64,000 nt of DNA from Rhodopseudomonas faecalis (GTDB taxonomy: Bacteria > Pseudomonadota > Alphaproteobacteria > Rhizobiales > Xanthobacteraceae): the NCBI RefSeq assembly GCF_003217325.1, contig NZ_QJTI01000014.1, positions 1 through 64,000 on the forward strand, written 5' to 3'. The translations under genes and the position numbers were made by a program. Every line of letters starts with the position of its first letter. Within the stretch, counting starts at the first letter, position 1. Positions 11,381 to 50,688 of the stretch are shown here, piece by piece. Below the pieces are notes generated by a model. It saw only the letters and a program-made list of their open reading frames with translations. It was not told where the DNA came from and did not search any database.

Positions 11381-12463
11381 ATGTCCAATCTCGAATCTCT
11401 GCAGACCCAGATCCTCGCCGATATCGCCGCTGCGGCCGATGAAGCGGCGCTGGAAGCGGTGCGTGTTGCTGCGCTCGGCAAGAAGGGCTCGATTTCCGCC
11501 CTGCTGGCCACGCTCGGCAAGATGGAGCCGGAGCAGCGCAAGACCGAAGGCGCTGCCATCAATCTCGCCAAGGAGCAGGTGACCAGCGCGCTCGCCGCCC
11601 GCCGCGAGGTGCTGAAAGCCGCGGCGCTGGAAGCGCGGCTCGCGTCCGAAACCATCGACGTCACGCTGCCGCTGCGCGACAGCGCCGCTGAGCAGGGCCG
11701 CATTCACCCGCTCAGCCAGGTGTGGGACGAACTGACCGCGATCTTCGCCGATATGGGCTTTGCGATCGCCGAAGGTCCGGACATCGAGACCGACGACAAC
11801 AACTTTACCCGGCTGAACTTCCCCGAGGGTCATCCGGCCCGCGAGATGCACGACACCTTCTATTTCAATCCGAAGGATGACGGCTCGCGCCTGCTGCTGC
11901 GCACCCACACCTCGCCGGTGCAGGTGCGCACCATGCTGAGCCAGAAGCCGCCGATCCGGGTGATCTGCCCGGGCCGGACCTATCGCAGCGACTCCGATCA
12001 GACCCACACGCCGATGTTCCACCAGGTCGAGGGCCTGGTGATCGACAAGGGCAGCCACCTTGGCCACCTGAAATGGATTTTGGCCGAGTTCTGCAAGGCG
12101 TTCTTCGAGGTCGACAACATCAACATGCGGTTCCGGCCGTCGTTCTTCCCGTTCACCGAGCCGTCGCTGGAAGTCGATATCCAGTGCCGCCGCGATAAGG
12201 GCGAGATCCGGTTCGGCGAGGGCGAGGATTGGCTGGAAATCCTCGGCTGCGGCATGGTCCATCCCAACGTGCTGCGCGCCTGCGACATCGATCCCGAAGT
12301 TTACCAGGGCTTTGCCTGGGGCATGGGCATCGATCGGATCGCGATGCTGAAATACGGCATGGCCGATTTGCGCCAGCTCTTTGAAGCCGACGCCCGCTGG
12401 CTCAATCACTACGGCTTCAAGCCGCTCGACATCCCGACGCTGGCTGGGGGCCTCAGTTCGTGA
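11381..12463 (+). CDS. pheS: Phenylalanine--tRNA ligase alpha subunit
   Basis: A 360-residue catalytic subunit of the alpha2-beta2 PheRS. The N-terminal coiled coil (about residues 1-85) is followed by the class II catalytic core with [17 protein letters not shown] and [19 protein letters not shown]-like motif 3 appears as [17 protein letters not shown] near the C-terminus. It charges tRNA-Phe together with PheT. The two subunits are normally adjacent; here an 850-bp segment with a nuclease gene separates them. Confidence 0.98.
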
Positions 12464-12509
12464 TGACCGGCTCGACTGCGGCTGTTAGCATCGCCGCAAG
12501 GTACGTCCG

Positions 12510-12538
12510 CCCCCCTCTCCCGCTTGCGGGGGAGCGGG
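12510..12538 (+). repeat. Family B-like palindrome after pheS
   Basis: An inverted repeat centred on CTCTCCCGCTTGCGGGGGAG, 47 bp after the pheS stop. It is a different subtype from the DUF559-flanking palindromes 115 bp downstream. Confidence 0.65.
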
Positions 12539-12652
12539 CTGTCCGTGCCGCCCCTGTGCTTTCAGAACGCCGTCCGCCCCTCACCACATTGAATGCGGCC
12601 AAACTTATCTCCAGTATCGGCCAGCTCGGCAGCGTCGAGCTTGGCGGGGTCG

Positions 12653-12691
12653 TTCCCTCCCCCCTTGTGGGGGAGGGTCAGGGAGGGGGGG
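12653..12691 (+). repeat. Left inverted repeat of the DUF559 unit
   Basis: A palindrome of CCCTCC...GGAGGG type with central TTGTG, followed by TCAGGGAGGGGGG. It ends nine bases before the DUF559 start codon. Confidence 0.9.
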
Positions 12692-12699
12692 CAGCAGCA

Positions 12700-13125
12700 A
12701 TGCCCCGCATCAAAGTTAGTCCGGTACAGCGCGGCCGCGCCAAAGCGCTGCGGCAAACAATGACGCCCGCCGAGACGCTGCTGTGGCGCCACATTAAAGC
12801 GCATCGCATCAATGGTCTCGGTTTCCGGCGGCAGATGCCGTTCCGCAACTATGTCGTCGATTTTGCCTGCCTGTCAGCAAAACTGATCGTTGAACTCGAC
12901 GGTGCGTCGCATGATGGCCTCGCCGCTCAAGGCGCTGACGCGCACCGCGATGCTTTCTTCGCCTCGCAGGGCTTTGTCGTCATGCGCTTCACCAATGAGC
13001 AGGTGAAAACCAATCTCGAAGGCGTGGTGGAAGCTATTCGTCAGGTCGCAAGCGAGCGCCTGCGAGTTAGCCCCCCCTCCCTAACCCTCCCCCACAAGGG
13101 GGGAGGGAATGAAGAACTCAAGTGA
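12700..13125 (+). CDS. DUF559 endonuclease-domain protein
   Basis: A 141-residue protein of the DUF559 family, which belongs to the PD-(D/E)xK nuclease superfamily (relatives of very-short-patch-repair Vsr). The expected catalytic positions are visible: Asp54 in YVVDFAC, Glu65 and Asp67 in LIVELDG, then His71. Its activity is undescribed as far as I know. The ATG at 12700 starts the conserved part; the open frame upstream reads through palindromes and is not typical protein. Residues about 125-137 (PPSLTLPHKGGGN) are encoded by the right inverted repeat, so the gene's 3' end and the repeat are fused. Confidence 0.85.
   Translation: MPRIKVSPVQRGRAKALRQTMTPAETLLWRHIKAHRINGLGFRRQMPFRNYVVDFACLSAKLIVELDGASHDGLAAQGADAHRDAFFASQGFVVMRFTNEQVKTNLEGVVEAIRQVASERLRVSPPSLTLPHKGGGNEELK
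13071..13109 (-). repeat. Right inverted repeat of the DUF559 unit
   Basis: The reverse complement of the left arm with one mismatch (A for G at 13083). It is translated as the C-terminus of the DUF559 protein, which stops 16 bp beyond it. Confidence 0.9.
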
Positions 13126-13318: not shown

Positions 13319-15748
13319 ATGAAATTCACCCTCTCCTGGCTGAAAGATCATCTCGACACCGACGAGTCGCTCGACAAGCTCGCCGACAAGCTCACCATGA
13401 TCGGGCTTGAGGTCGAGCACCTCGAGGACAAGGCCAAGGCGCTGGCGCCGTTCGTGATCGCCAAGGTGATCACTGCCGAACAGCACCCCAACGCCGACCG
13501 GCTGCGGGTGTGCATGGTCGATATCGGCCAAAAGAATTCGGCCGGTGAACCCGAGCCGGTGCAGGTGGTATGCGGCGCGCCCAATGCCCGCGCCGGCCTG
13601 CTGACCGTATTCGCCCCGCCCGGCACCTATATTCCGGCCAAGAACATCACGCTCAGCATCGGCACCATTCGCGGCGTCGAAAGCCGCGGCATGCTGTGCT
13701 CGGCCGCCGAGCTGGAAATCTCCAACGATCATGACGGCATCATCGAGCTGCCGGCCGATGCGCCGGTGGGCGAGCCCTATGCCGCCTTCGCCGGCCTCGG
13801 CGATCCGGTGATCGAGATCAACCTGACGCCGAACCGCCAGGACTGCACCGGCGTGCACGGCATCGCCCGCGATCTTGCCGCGGCCGACATGGGCAAGCTC
13901 AAGGACCCGGCGATCAAGGCGATCAAGGGCGAGTTCCCGTGCCCGGTGAAGGTGATCGTCGAAGACGAAAAACTGTGCCCGGGCTTTGCGCTGCGGCTGG
14001 TGAAGGGCGTCAAGAACGGCCCCTCGCCGGAATGGCTGCAAAAGCGCCTGACCGCGATCGGGCTGCGCCCGATTAACGCGCTGGTCGACATCACCAACTA
14101 CATGACGTTTGACCGCGGCCGGCCGCTGCATGTGTTCGACGCCGCCAAGGTCAAGGGCGACCTCACGGTGCGCCGCGCCCGCGCCGGCGAAACGCTGCTG
14201 GCGCTCGATGGCCGCAGCTACACGCTCGATGAGCGCGTGTGCGTGATCGCCGACGAGCATGGCGTGGAATCGCTGGCCGGCATCATGGGCGGCGAAGCCT
14301 CCGGCTGCTCGGACGACACCACCGACGTGCTGATCGAATCGGCGCTGTGGAACGAGATCAACATCGCCCAGACCGGCCGCCGGCTCGGCATCAATTCCGA
14401 CGCGCGCTATCGCTTCGAGCGCGGCGTCGATCCGGCATTCATGGTGCCGGGGCTGGAACTGGCCACCAAGCTGGTGCTGGAAATGTGCGGCGGCACGCCG
14501 TCGGAAGCGGTGGTGGTCGGCCAGCGCTTTGGCGATGACCGCATCATCGAATTCCCGCTCGCCGAGGTGAAGCGGCTGGCCGGCATCGAAGTGCCGCTGC
14601 CGGAAATCCGCCTGATCCTGCAACGGCTCGGCTTCAGCATGGCCGGCCAGGGCGATACCGTGAAGGTGGCGGTGCCCTCCTGGCGCAGCGACGTGTACGG
14701 CAAGGCCGACATCGTCGAGGAAATCGTGCGCATCGTCGGCGTCGATCAGGTGCCGCTGACGCCGTTTGCCCGGGGCGAGTCGCCGCGCAAGCCGGTGCTG
14801 ACCCTGATGCAGAACCGCACCCGCCGCGCCAAGCGCGCACTGGCGGCACGCGGCATGGTCGAGGCCGTGACCTGGTCGTTCATCGCCAAGGCAGAAGCCG
14901 AAGCGTTTGGCGGCGGCCAGCCCGAATTGGCGCTCGCCAATCCGATCGCGTCCGACCTGTCCGACATGCGGCCGAGCCTGCTACCGGGCCTGATCACTGC
15001 CGCGCAGGCCAATGCCGATCGCGGCTTGGCCGATCTGGCGCTGTTCGAGGTCGGCCAGGTGTTCAAGGGCGACCAGCCGCAGGATCAGCTGATGGCCGCG
15101 AGCGGCGTGCGCCGCGGCTTTGCCTCGGCGCAGGGTCTTGGCCGACATTGGTCCGGCACCGCCGCTGCAACTGCGCTCGATGCCAAGGCGGACGCCTTCG
15201 CCGCGCTCGCCGCCGCGGGCTGCCCGATGCAGGCGTTGCAAATCGCCACCGGCAAGGCGCTGCCGTCCTGGCTGCATCCTGGCCGCTCCGGCGCGATCCA
15301 GATCGGGCCGCAGAACGTGCTCGGCTATTTCGGCGAACTGCATCCGCGCGTGCTGGAGCAGCTCCATGCCGACGGCCCGGTGGTGGCGTTTGAAGTGATC
15401 CTCGACAAGATTCCAGAGGGCAAGGCCAAGGCGACCCGCGCCAAGCCGACCTTGGAGCTGTCCGCGTTCCATCCGGTGTCGCGCGACTTCGCGTTCATCG
15501 TCGATCGCGGGGTTTTGGCCGGCGATCTGCTGCGCGCGGCGCAAGGCGCCGACAAGAAGCTGATCACCGCCGCCACGGTGTTCGACGTCTATGAGGGTAA
15601 GGGCATCGACGCCGGCAAGAAGTCGGTGGCGATCGCGGTCACCATTCAGCCGCGCGAAAAGACCCTGACCGACCAGGAGATCGAGGCAATCGCCGCCAAG
15701 ATCGTGGCCGAAGTCACCAAAAAGACCGGCGGCGTGCTGCGCGGCTAA
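13319..15748 (+). CDS. pheT: Phenylalanine--tRNA ligase beta subunit
   Basis: An 809-residue protein with the full bacterial PheT domain order: N-terminal tRNA-binding OB domain ([16 protein letters not shown]), B3/B4 editing domain ([20 protein letters not shown]), B5 domain, catalytic-like core, and C-terminal ferredoxin-fold anticodon-binding domain ([18 protein letters not shown]). It edits mischarged Tyr-tRNA and supports PheS. The start [14 protein letters not shown] is typical. A large antisense open frame across it is a codon-bias shadow. Confidence 0.98.
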
Positions 15749-38473: not shown

Positions 38474-38532
38474 GTGTGCGATCTAACCTGATGTTCTGAC
38501 GCGTTTTTCAGGTGCGTGGCGCTCACTCCGCG

Positions 38533-38624
38533 CGTCATGGCCGGACATCGTCCCGGCCATCCACCCCTTTGATCCATCACCGCGCGCAAGACGTGGATGC
38601 CCGCGACCAAGCGCGGGCATGACG
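38533..38624 (+). repeat. Family A repeat (92 bp)
   Basis: CGTC; hairpin I (ATGGCCGGA with CCCGGCCAT, 6-nt loop); a weakened hairpin II (CCACCCCTT with AAGACGTGG); a perfect hairpin III with loop ACCAAG; GACG. It follows the BI-1 terminator. Confidence 0.9.
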
Positions 38625-38695
38625 GGTCATTGAGGGGGTGCAGATGGCACCTCGTTCCGATTCCATCGCCTCCGAATCTGTCCTAGCCTCCCGCC

Positions 38696-39253: not shown

Positions 39254-39291
39254 GAGATTTCAAAACCGGCTCCCCCGGCGCCGGGCCGGCT

Positions 39292-39425
39292 CCCTCGCCC
39301 CGCTCTTGCGGGGAGAGGGGTGGGGTGAGGGGCTGCTGAGTCCGCGATCCGCCGCAACGCCCCCTCACCCGATCCGGCTTCGCTGCGCGTCGCCAGATCG
39401 ACCTCTCCCCGCAAGCGGGGCGAGG
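39292..39425. repeat. Family B composite: two palindromes facing inward
   Basis: The left unit is palindrome CCCTCGCCCC...GGGGAGAGGG plus the tail GGTGGGGTGAGGGG. The right unit is CCCCTCACCCG plus palindrome CCTCTCCCCGCAAGCGGGG. The palindromes are outside and the tails inside, the same orientation as around the DUF559 gene, but with only a 30-70 bp spacer and no gene. It lies between convergent genes. Confidence 0.85.
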
Positions 39426-39435
39426 TACAAACCAA

Positions 39436-44666: not shown

Positions 44667-44882
44667 GGCACCCCCACCCCGGCCTCCGCAGAGCTTGTGC
44701 CCGGACGGCGCGCAGCGCCGATCCGGGTGCTCGGCCAACCCTCCCCGCAAGGGGGAGGGAGATCGCAGCCGCTCTGCCCTCATCGAACTACGCCCGCGTC
44801 GCGTCGCAGCCTTCCTTGTCCCTCCCCCTTGTGGGGAGGGTGGCCCGGCGCAGCGCAGCGAAGCCGGGTCGGGTGGGGGTCC
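44667..44882. repeat. Family B composite between ccmA and ccmB
   Basis: The outer ends CACCCCCACCCCGGCC (44669 on) and GGGTCGGGTGGGGGTCC (to 44882) are inverted. The inner palindromes CCCTCCCCGCAAGGGGGAGGG and CCCTCCCCCTTGTGGGGAGGG are also inverted. Here tails face outward and palindromes inward, opposite to the DUF559 unit. No gene lies within it. Confidence 0.85.
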
Positions 44883-49549: not shown

Positions 49550-50512
49550 ATGAACGAAAGTGACATTGAGACGGCTAAGGAACTTAGCGCCGAGGAGATC
49601 CTGGCGCGGGTGCTGCACCGCGACGGCCTGATGCTGGTGATCGACAAGCCGGCCGGGTTGCCGGTGCACCGCGGCCCCAAGGGCGGACCGAACCTGGAGG
49701 CGTCGTTCGACGCGCTGCGCTTTGGCCTGCCGCGGCCGCCGGTGCTGGCGCATCGGCTCGACCGCGATACCTCGGGCTGCCTGGTGCTCGGCCGGCACCG
49801 CAAGGCCACCGCGACGCTCGGCCTGCTGTTCAAGCACAGCAAAATCGCCAAAACCTATTGGGCGGTGGTGGAGGGTGGCCCGGACGAGGACCACGGCACC
49901 ATCGACCTGCCGATCGGCAAGCGCAACGCTGAGCGCGGCTGGTGGCAAAAGATCGATCATGACGAGGGGCTGCCGTCGCTGACCAAATGGACGGTGCTGG
50001 GGCGGTACGTGCCGGAGGGCGCAGCCGCAGCCCCTGCGACAGAGCCGGAGGGGTCGGCTGCAAACAACTCCCCTCCCCCTTGCGGGCAGGGGTCGGGGGT
50101 GGGGTGCGACAGCGGCGATCTCTCCTTGGGACACCCCCCACCCCAACCCTCCCCCGCAAGGGGGGAGGGAGCGCGCGGCGCCCCTGGCAACGCCTCCGGC
50201 GAAACGGCGGTAGAGTCCAGCCAAACGGCGGCAGAGCATGCCGCGAGCAGCGGGCGGCTGACCTGGCTGGCGCTGGAGCCGATCACCGGCCGCACCCATC
50301 AATTGCGGGTGCATTGCGCGGCGATGGGCTGGCCGATCGTCGGCGACAACATCTATGGCAACGGCCCGCGGTTCGGCGAACCGACGCTGCATCTGCACGC
50401 CCGGCAGATTTCGATTCCGCTATCGCGCAACAAGCCGCCGGTGGTGGTGACCGCGCCAGTGCCGCCGCATCTGCACCAGCGCATGCGCTCCTGCGGCTGG
50501 AACGGCGAGTAG
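49550..50512 (+). CDS. RluA-family RNA pseudouridine synthase with a repeat-derived insert
   Basis: A 320-residue enzyme. Conserved parts are [18 protein letters not shown], the catalytic HRLDRDTSG with Asp71, and [31 protein letters not shown]. It isomerises specific uridines in rRNA or tRNA; the target is not assignable. About 80 residues (153-235) interrupt the domain between the TKWTVLGRY and GRLTWLALE strands. Their centre is translated from a family B composite repeat ([29 protein letters not shown]). The frame stays open, so the protein may still fold with the insert as a surface loop. Confidence 0.88.
50069..50172. repeat. Family B composite inside the pseudouridine synthase gene
   Basis: The left unit is CCCTCCCCCTTGCGGGCAGGG plus tail GTCGGGGGTGGGGTGC. 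The right unit is CACCCCCCACCCCAACC plus palindrome CCCTCCCCCGCAAGGGGGG. Palindromes are outside and tails inside, as in the DUF559 unit and the 39.3-kb composite. It is read in frame without a stop. Confidence 0.9.
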
Positions 50513-50598: not shown

Positions 50599-50688
50599 CG
50601 TCTTGGCCGGGCTCGTCCCGGCCATCCACGTCTTTCCTCTTGAACGATCACCTAGACGTGGATGCCAGCGGCCAGCGCGGCCATGACG
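50599..50688 (+). repeat. Family A repeat (90 bp)
   Basis: CGTC; hairpin I (TTGGCCGGG with CCCGGCCAT); hairpin II (CCACGTCTT with AGACGTGG); hairpin III drifted (ATGCCAGCG with CGCGGCCAT); GACG. It lies between the convergent pseudouridine synthase and mtaB genes. Confidence 0.88.

Follow-up and report, generated by a model that had tools for sequence, protein, structure and literature searches.

The window (the whole 64,000-nucleotide stretch of Rhodopseudomonas faecalis DNA analyzed here) carries, between pheS and pheT, a DUF559 nuclease gene enclosed by inverted arms, and each arm has the layout of a potential triplex motif. Motifs of this kind lie close to almost all of the short DUF559 genes that we sampled, in the bacterial family of the window and beyond it. 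We judge it somewhat better than an even bet, with a probability of about 0.57, that this unit is one locus of a REPtron-like repeat-nuclease system in which both the enzyme and the DNA structure differ from those of REP/RAYT, the enzyme being unrelated. In the parts of the literature covered, no report linking DUF559 to triplex repeats was found.

The nuclease unit and its surroundings in the window

The nuclease gene runs on the plus strand (12700..13125) from an ATG at 12700 to a stop at 13125 and encodes a 141-aa protein of the PD-(D/E)XK type, which matched the PF04480 (DUF559) profile at E=1.4e-37 (128.3 bits versus a cut-off of 20.6). As originally predicted, the catalytic residues Asp54, Glu65, and Asp67 are intact; they are invariant in a 29-sequence DUF559 alignment, as are R18, E25, W29, R44, Q45, G68, D80, R83, and R96. 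By profile, the protein is close to the "Endonuclease-Like Protein" 3hrl (E=2.7e-40) and also matches the mobile-intron nuclease 3r3p (E=7.5e-6), which we take to be I-Bth0305I; however, no intron is known at the window unit, which has repeats instead. No PDB Vsr chain was among its 14 profile matches up to E 10. The reading frame is also open upstream, from a GTG at 12460 at the pheS end, via the left arm, and into the nuclease (12460-12699), and going by this open frame, a longer nuclease protein including the left arm is possible.

The left arm (12650..12692, plus strand) consists of a C-rich/G-rich 9-bp hairpin (CCCTCCCCC, the 5-nt loop CTTGT, and GGGGGAGGG), a 3-nt linker (TCA), and the purine strand GGGAGGGGG, which is the mirror image of the purine side of the stem, GGGGGAGGG, and is aimed at the nuclease gene. 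The right arm (13070..13112, minus strand) is an inverted copy built around the same kind of hairpin; the arms are 43 nt each, are 95% complementary, and have 377 nt between them, bearing out the near-perfect inverted repeats described at the outset. The right arm doubles as coding sequence for the nuclease C terminus, again as predicted, and of 31 flanked family units, 26 have their stop codon in or past the 3' arm. The proposal that nuclease and palindromes form one unit is supported. The original prediction overlooked that, through its G-rich tail, each arm belongs to a type of potential triplex motif already known. By energy alone, the hairpins do not stand out: their DNA folds (-11.5 and -11.8 kcal/mol) were equalled by 13 and 6 of 200 shuffles. 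Allowing up to three mismatches, the window gave four matches to the pattern CCCTCCCCCTTGTGGGGGAGGG, two of which are the arms, compared with a mean of 0.00 and a maximum of 0 in 100 shuffles.

Both arms show the layout of the PIT/TM_ECO repeats: Y-stem, loop, R-stem, short loop, and mirror R-strand. The TM pattern published by Holder et al. in 2015, CCCTCNCCC-N3-6-GGGNGAGGG-N3-GGGNGAGGG (PMC4666352), is matched by the window arms only with up to three mismatches, at 12655-12689 and 13073-13107, and no exact match occurs in the whole window. Holder et al. counted 3610 copies of TM-type repeats in 262 proteobacterial genomes and linked them to genome instability. The available portions of their paper assign the repeats no function or origin, state that mobility activities were never found near TM_ECO, and find nothing in favor of a stable triplex forming in vivo, although triplex formation by TM_ECO has been reported in vitro (PMC4666352). 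PIT/TM_ECO repeats were, in those portions, described without an enzyme, whereas the nuclease link comes from this work.

The inward gene-less pairs claimed at 39.3 kb and 50.1 kb do exist, at 39290..39427 (about 30 bp between arms; the sister genome G089 has a different repeat here) and at 50071..50169 (motifs at 50071-50103 on the plus strand and 50135-50169 on the minus strand, with up to three mismatches; also present in G089), and they look like derivatives of the nuclease unit, as had been suggested. Two related palindromes missing from the original prediction face outward at 44741..44838 (44.74 and 44.82 kb). In the genome of the window, the gene-less pairs L014, L016, and L019 have two arms facing across a short core. 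One simple palindrome pattern occurs 135 times in this genome, and the reversed pattern 3 times. Of the four DUF559 matches in the genome, three are short genes enclosed by inverted arms whose class differs from gene to gene, and the fourth lies in a 402-aa frame near a contig end, with no arms in view. A profile search of the same genome with PF01797 (Y1 HUH tyrosine transposase) gave 0 matches. A dispersed repeat of another kind, about 108 bp long, lies at 38525-38633 and has dozens of matches in G089; it reads like what we take to be a CGTC-type REP. G089 also carries, at locus L241 opposite position 50608 of the window, a 1274-bp insert that is absent from the window.

The unit is bordered by pheS (11381..12463, plus strand) on the left and pheT (13319..15748, plus strand) on the right. 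An empty site, sought in relatives, was found in G089, the nearest sister genome (PheT, 99% identity across 202 aa), in which pheS and pheT overlap as ATGA with nothing between them. In 13 of 15 congeners, the gap holds another nuclease (41-46% identity) with other palindromes; the remaining two are G089 and G125, the latter with an unrelated insert, namely, 699 bp of another sequence (L148) in which neither a DUF559 match nor such a palindrome was found. With different nuclease units, an unrelated insert, or nothing in one gap, the pheS-pheT gap is therefore a multiallelic slot. The unit of the window, which is of class B, is found again beside pheT in L027 (72% protein identity) and between pheS and pheT in L118 (67%). 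Between pheS and the left arm lies a degenerate palindrome of another class (CCCTCTCCCGCTTGCGGGGGAGCG, 12513..12536), possibly the remnant of an earlier slot occupant. Occupancy varies similarly at the L002 slot, where the 15 resolved genomes (16 sampled) comprise 5 with a nuclease unit, 6 with a gene-less pair, and 4 with other repeats, and repeats reading like CGTC REPs share slots with DUF559 units. CGTC REPs of alphaproteobacteria are palindromic and, in the available portions of the source, are reported without a dedicated transposase (PMC3733652); they occur in the same bacteria but are unlike the DUF559 arms in sequence. On plasmids, the DUF559 gene L383 of Sphingomonas parapaucimobilis lies between NAD(P) transhydrogenase subunit genes, an operon interruption like that of pheS-pheT, and those of the Deinococcus plasmids L378 and L379 lie at two distinct points within an hpa catabolic cluster.

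Inverted arms and triplex motifs across DUF559 loci

Inverted arms were scored by aligning the left flank of each gene to the reverse complement of its right flank. In the family sample (40 DUF559 loci, each taken from a different genome, leaning to strong members because they were chosen from the best-scoring matches listed), 31 of 40 loci scored at least 20, whereas control placements (13-28 per locus) never exceeded 16. Measured against other ORFs, and with one contig-end locus counted as a miss, 30/40 family loci reached this score versus 1/289 ORFs (small ORFs, 0/97). DUF559 genes elsewhere in the genus are likewise flanked: all 31 loci with enough sequence scored at least 27 (some of them genes already counted in the family sample), and 19 of 20 further loci scored at least 26, with an exception at 10. 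Two outcomes originally named as refuting, unflanked DUF559 genes in the genus and arbitrary genes flanked equally often, were accordingly not borne out. Seven leftover genus loci comprised three that scored 39-45, one at 17, one at 16 (not these palindromes), and two at 9-10. The diverged short DUF559 genes L357 and L358 (G190 and G170; 99-103 bits) were without palindrome arms of this kind and are perhaps decayed units.

Thirteen further family loci included seven that scored at least 21, and in all 13 the best left arm, or half of it, contained a CCTC-type palindrome (14-36). At the phylum level, arm scores of at least 16 were found at 14/30 and 15/19 loci (together, 29/49), and among distant loci from a scan of named genomes at 9/13; the other four distant loci scored 10 or less, although one of them, L027, does have both arms (the match coordinates ran past the right one). 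A Bacteroidaceae locus (L036) has a perfect 42-bp arm pair, and arm pairs were also found at Legionella worsleiensis, Prevotellaceae, and Planctomycetota loci. From the plasmid collection, 9 of 45 matching records were taken, one of which is an E. coli chromosome filed there, and 3 of the 9 (two Deinococcus and Azospirillum lipoferum) scored at least 16. Long-ORF proteins with a DUF559 domain scored 9-12 in 16/16 cases. Overall, DUF559 was present in 181/198 family and 112/299 phylum genomes sampled.

The scan for triplex motifs, with criteria fixed after the arms had been seen, required an 8-nt Y-stem, an R-stem with no more than one mismatch, and a mirror third strand with no more than two, within 350 bp of the gene on either side and strand; because the gap could be as wide as 45 nt, arms that contain an additional hairpin were also counted. 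Such a motif lay within 350 bp of 119/123 short DUF559 genes (family, 39/40; further family, 13/13; phylum, 47/49; distant, 12/12; plasmid collection, 8/9), compared with 33/2000 random placements, which were drawn from 1.6 Mb of four congeners and are unmatched in composition to the other groups. With the third strand held within 6 nt, the counts were 93/123 (26/40, 11/13, 38/49, 12/12, and 6/9 in the same order) versus 13/2000 background placements. None of the 16 long-ORF DUF559 genes had a triplex motif nearby.

Inward motifs on both sides were found at 35/40 family loci versus 0/549 same-locus controls and, with the strict gap, at 17/40 versus 0/548. The exact published TM pattern occurred on both sides of 11 and on at least one side of 19 of the 40 family loci, as opposed to 0 and 2 of 565 controls. 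In the other groups, both flanks bore inward motifs at 25/49 phylum, 3/12 distant, and 1/9 plasmid collection loci, and at least one outward motif was present at 17/40 family, 42/49 phylum, 11/12 distant, and 7/9 plasmid collection loci. Inward symmetry is weaker outside the family; the inward unit is therefore a family pattern, and elsewhere proximity is the constant.

Descent, repeat abundance, and the E. coli gene ycjD

Comparison of 52 of the 61 genus matches above 99 bits placed them in 10 shared contexts, and nucleases from the same genome were at most 61% identical. The original prediction of an autonomous, inserted unit is, if taken to mean a recent insertion, not supported by these shared contexts, which come without recent duplication, and recent transposition of the nuclease was rejected on the low identity of same-genome copies. 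Purifying selection on the domain region was evident in three ortholog sets (7, 7, and 5 sequences), with median omega values of 0.121, 0.092, and 0.125. Given the 10 contexts, the identity ceiling, and an omega of about 0.1, the nuclease is not copied around the genome as an insertion sequence would be. Neither near-identical copies nor target-site duplications, by which insertion sequences are recognized, were found; the latter were looked for at pheS-pheT, the L002 slot, the 39.3-kb site of the window, hrpB-mrcB, and tauD-hemB, some of which are swapped slots.

Arm similarity tracks protein identity (Mantel r 0.28; 0/2000 permutations as strong) in the 75 of 104 loci with an arm score of at least 16, with pairs at or above 85% identity left out. 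Of the nucleases in this set, the four most closely related to that of the window (52-69%) have its class-B palindrome core. Common descent contributes to this link, since L118, one of those four, and L027 also share the pheS-pheT location. In 4 x 400 kb of congeners, a small sample, no correspondence was found between dispersed repeat type and resident nuclease type: type-A repeats (one mismatch allowed) numbered 10 in G108, which has a type-A nuclease, and 8 in G190 and 4 in G125, which are without one at its usual place. Across 198 family genomes, DUF559 and palindrome counts correlated (Spearman 0.62; reversed pattern, -0.23), a correlation that follows lineages, ignores kinship and genome size, and includes the flanking arms in the palindrome count. 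A DUF559 match better than about 1e-25 was present in 76/80 family genomes with at least 50 palindromes. Y1 (PF01797) transposases, the kind of enzyme that goes with the REPs described so far, had matches at E<=0.001 in 46/198 family genomes, with palindrome medians of 62 in genomes with a Y1 match versus 31 in those without. A PADLOC search for a defense role returned one weak match, DpdF (E=0.00065).

These features recall the REP/RAYT systems. According to the portions of the sources available, tnpA_REP genes are palindrome flanked and usually single copy, with no evidence for mobility of their own, and REPs are present in many copies elsewhere, often as inverted pairs, with an abundance that correlates with tnpA_REP (PMC8266576; PMC3733652). 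Likewise, the DUF559 gene is flanked by inverted repeats that are also found gene-less, less strongly so outside the family, and is single copy per type rather than duplicating. The analogy originally drawn with REP/RAYT holds in the family, where 35/40 loci are enclosed by inward motifs. The enzyme, however, is a PD-(D/E)XK nuclease and not an HUH tyrosine nuclease, and DUF559 arms carry a mirror purine strand. A common GTAG tag at arm ends was not found by eye; L104 alone among the 40 family arms ends in GTAG.

The DUF559 gene of E. coli K-12 is ycjD, and TM_ECO copy 9 lies about 166 bp from its stop; the chance of a TM_ECO site within 350 bp is about 0.4%. MG1655 has 23 TM_ECO copies, five inverted pairs among them (PMC4666352). 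These repeats resemble those of the window in arm layout and inverted pairing; the E. coli copies are intergenic. Copy 9 points away from ycjD, which thus has one outward and no inward motif, and a degenerate palindrome overlaps the ycjD 3' end. An inverted pair at hrpB-mrcB of MG1655 is absent from strains MS1494 and 254D-1, with no visible target duplication, and O157:H7 strains without ycjD retain the hrpB-mrcB stretch at full length. The ycjD gene and its flank were found in 3364/5426 E. coli genomes. In three ycjD-minus strains examined, the eef operon occupies the same fabI-sapF slot (L386, L387-L389), so that the slot is taken by either ycjD, with its triplex repeat, or the eef efflux operon; this occupancy follows phylogroups and was published as a loss of eef (PMC12817139).

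Repeat copies were compared in an even sample of 60 from 5393 matching E. coli records, with matching places counted as copies on the basis of the listed query positions rather than one at a time. The 37 ycjD-positive records had a median of 18 other matching places (11-26) versus 4 (1-18) in the 23 ycjD-negative records (p=2e-9), a contrast that is confounded by lineage: the records are not independent, because ycjD and eef presence follows phylogroups, and kinship and genome size are ignored. At least 11 matching places were present in 9/23 ycjD-negative records.

Proposed working of the system and rival explanations

We infer that the DUF559 system recognizes, cuts, and mobilizes the arms and that the cell benefits from it. 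An arm could fold when single stranded, for example, on the lagging strand or during repair, and the nuclease may then recognize the folded arm and cut near its edge. Cut arm pairs would be copied or joined into breaks in intergenic DNA, with slots already holding repeats as the preferred targets, and the nuclease gene would be maintained by selection as the repeats it serves are dispersed and decay. The variable motif direction outside the family and the poor match between repeat types and resident nucleases speak against this reading, and a caretaker role would produce an association as well. Because short DUF559 genes in the genomes sampled nearly always lie beside triplex-type repeats, their product is a strong candidate for an enzyme responsible for spreading or maintaining such repeats. 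More tentatively, and at slightly less than even odds, DUF559 may represent a second, unrelated family that evolved the REP/RAYT way of life across several phyla and that recognizes and spreads triplex-forming arms, which would explain the origin of PIT/TM_ECO and make ycjD the resident enzyme of K-12.

Alternatively, though this seems unlikely to us, the nuclease could be a caretaker, that is, a Vsr-like repair enzyme acting on folded hairpins, triplexes, or mismatches that stops repeats from blocking replication and does not spread them. Genomes with the nuclease would then tolerate more repeats, and the gene would adjoin repeats that regulate or protect the nuclease. Caulobacter VsrA, which has a DUF559 domain and was placed in the PD-(D/E)XK superfamily, is reported to be required if a methylase mutant is to mount an SOS response (PMC12907096), and a YcjD profile detected Vsr (PMC1189080). 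The window unit differs from Vsr-like endonucleases in having repeats, with no methylase gene seen adjoining. One gene copy per type, purifying selection, and the many nonfamily loci with only a one-sided or outward motif would also suit a caretaker; however, such a role leaves unexplained the inward enclosure in the family (35/40), the similarity link between arms and nucleases, and the replacement of whole nuclease-plus-arm units in one slot. Less probable still is a homing-like behavior, in which the nuclease would cut unit-less slot alleles and the unit would be copied in by recombination, with the arms as borders and the gene-less pairs as decay products. The profile similarity to 3r3p and the slots with different occupants (pheS-pheT, the L002 slot, and fabI-sapF in E. 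coli) point this way, but palindromes far outnumber nucleases in the genome of the window (135 versus 4) and lie at many places, and homing alone gives no dispersal to new sites.

We regard as very improbable an ordinary autonomous insertion element, comprising a gene and terminal repeats, with gene-less MITE derivatives. It would account for the gene between inverted arms and for the gene-less inward pairs, but not for the confinement of 52 of the 61 strong genus matches to 10 shared contexts, the divergence of same-genome copies (at most 61% identity), or the lack of a target duplication at the slots compared. Chance, or G+C-rich terminator-like DNA around small genes, has next to no probability. 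Such palindromes are common in these genomes, yet inverted arms were seen at 1/289 other ORFs (0/97 small ones), and triplex motifs were seen at 33/2000 random placements and 0/16 long-ORF DUF559 genes; a chance association is refuted by these controls.

In sum, the reading of the window unit as one locus of a REPtron-like repeat-nuclease system offers a new functional lead for DUF559, and a specifically associated nuclease provides a testable enzyme for triplex repeats in E. coli K-12 itself. If this reading is true, partnerships of the REP/RAYT kind would have arisen more than once, from unrelated enzymes.
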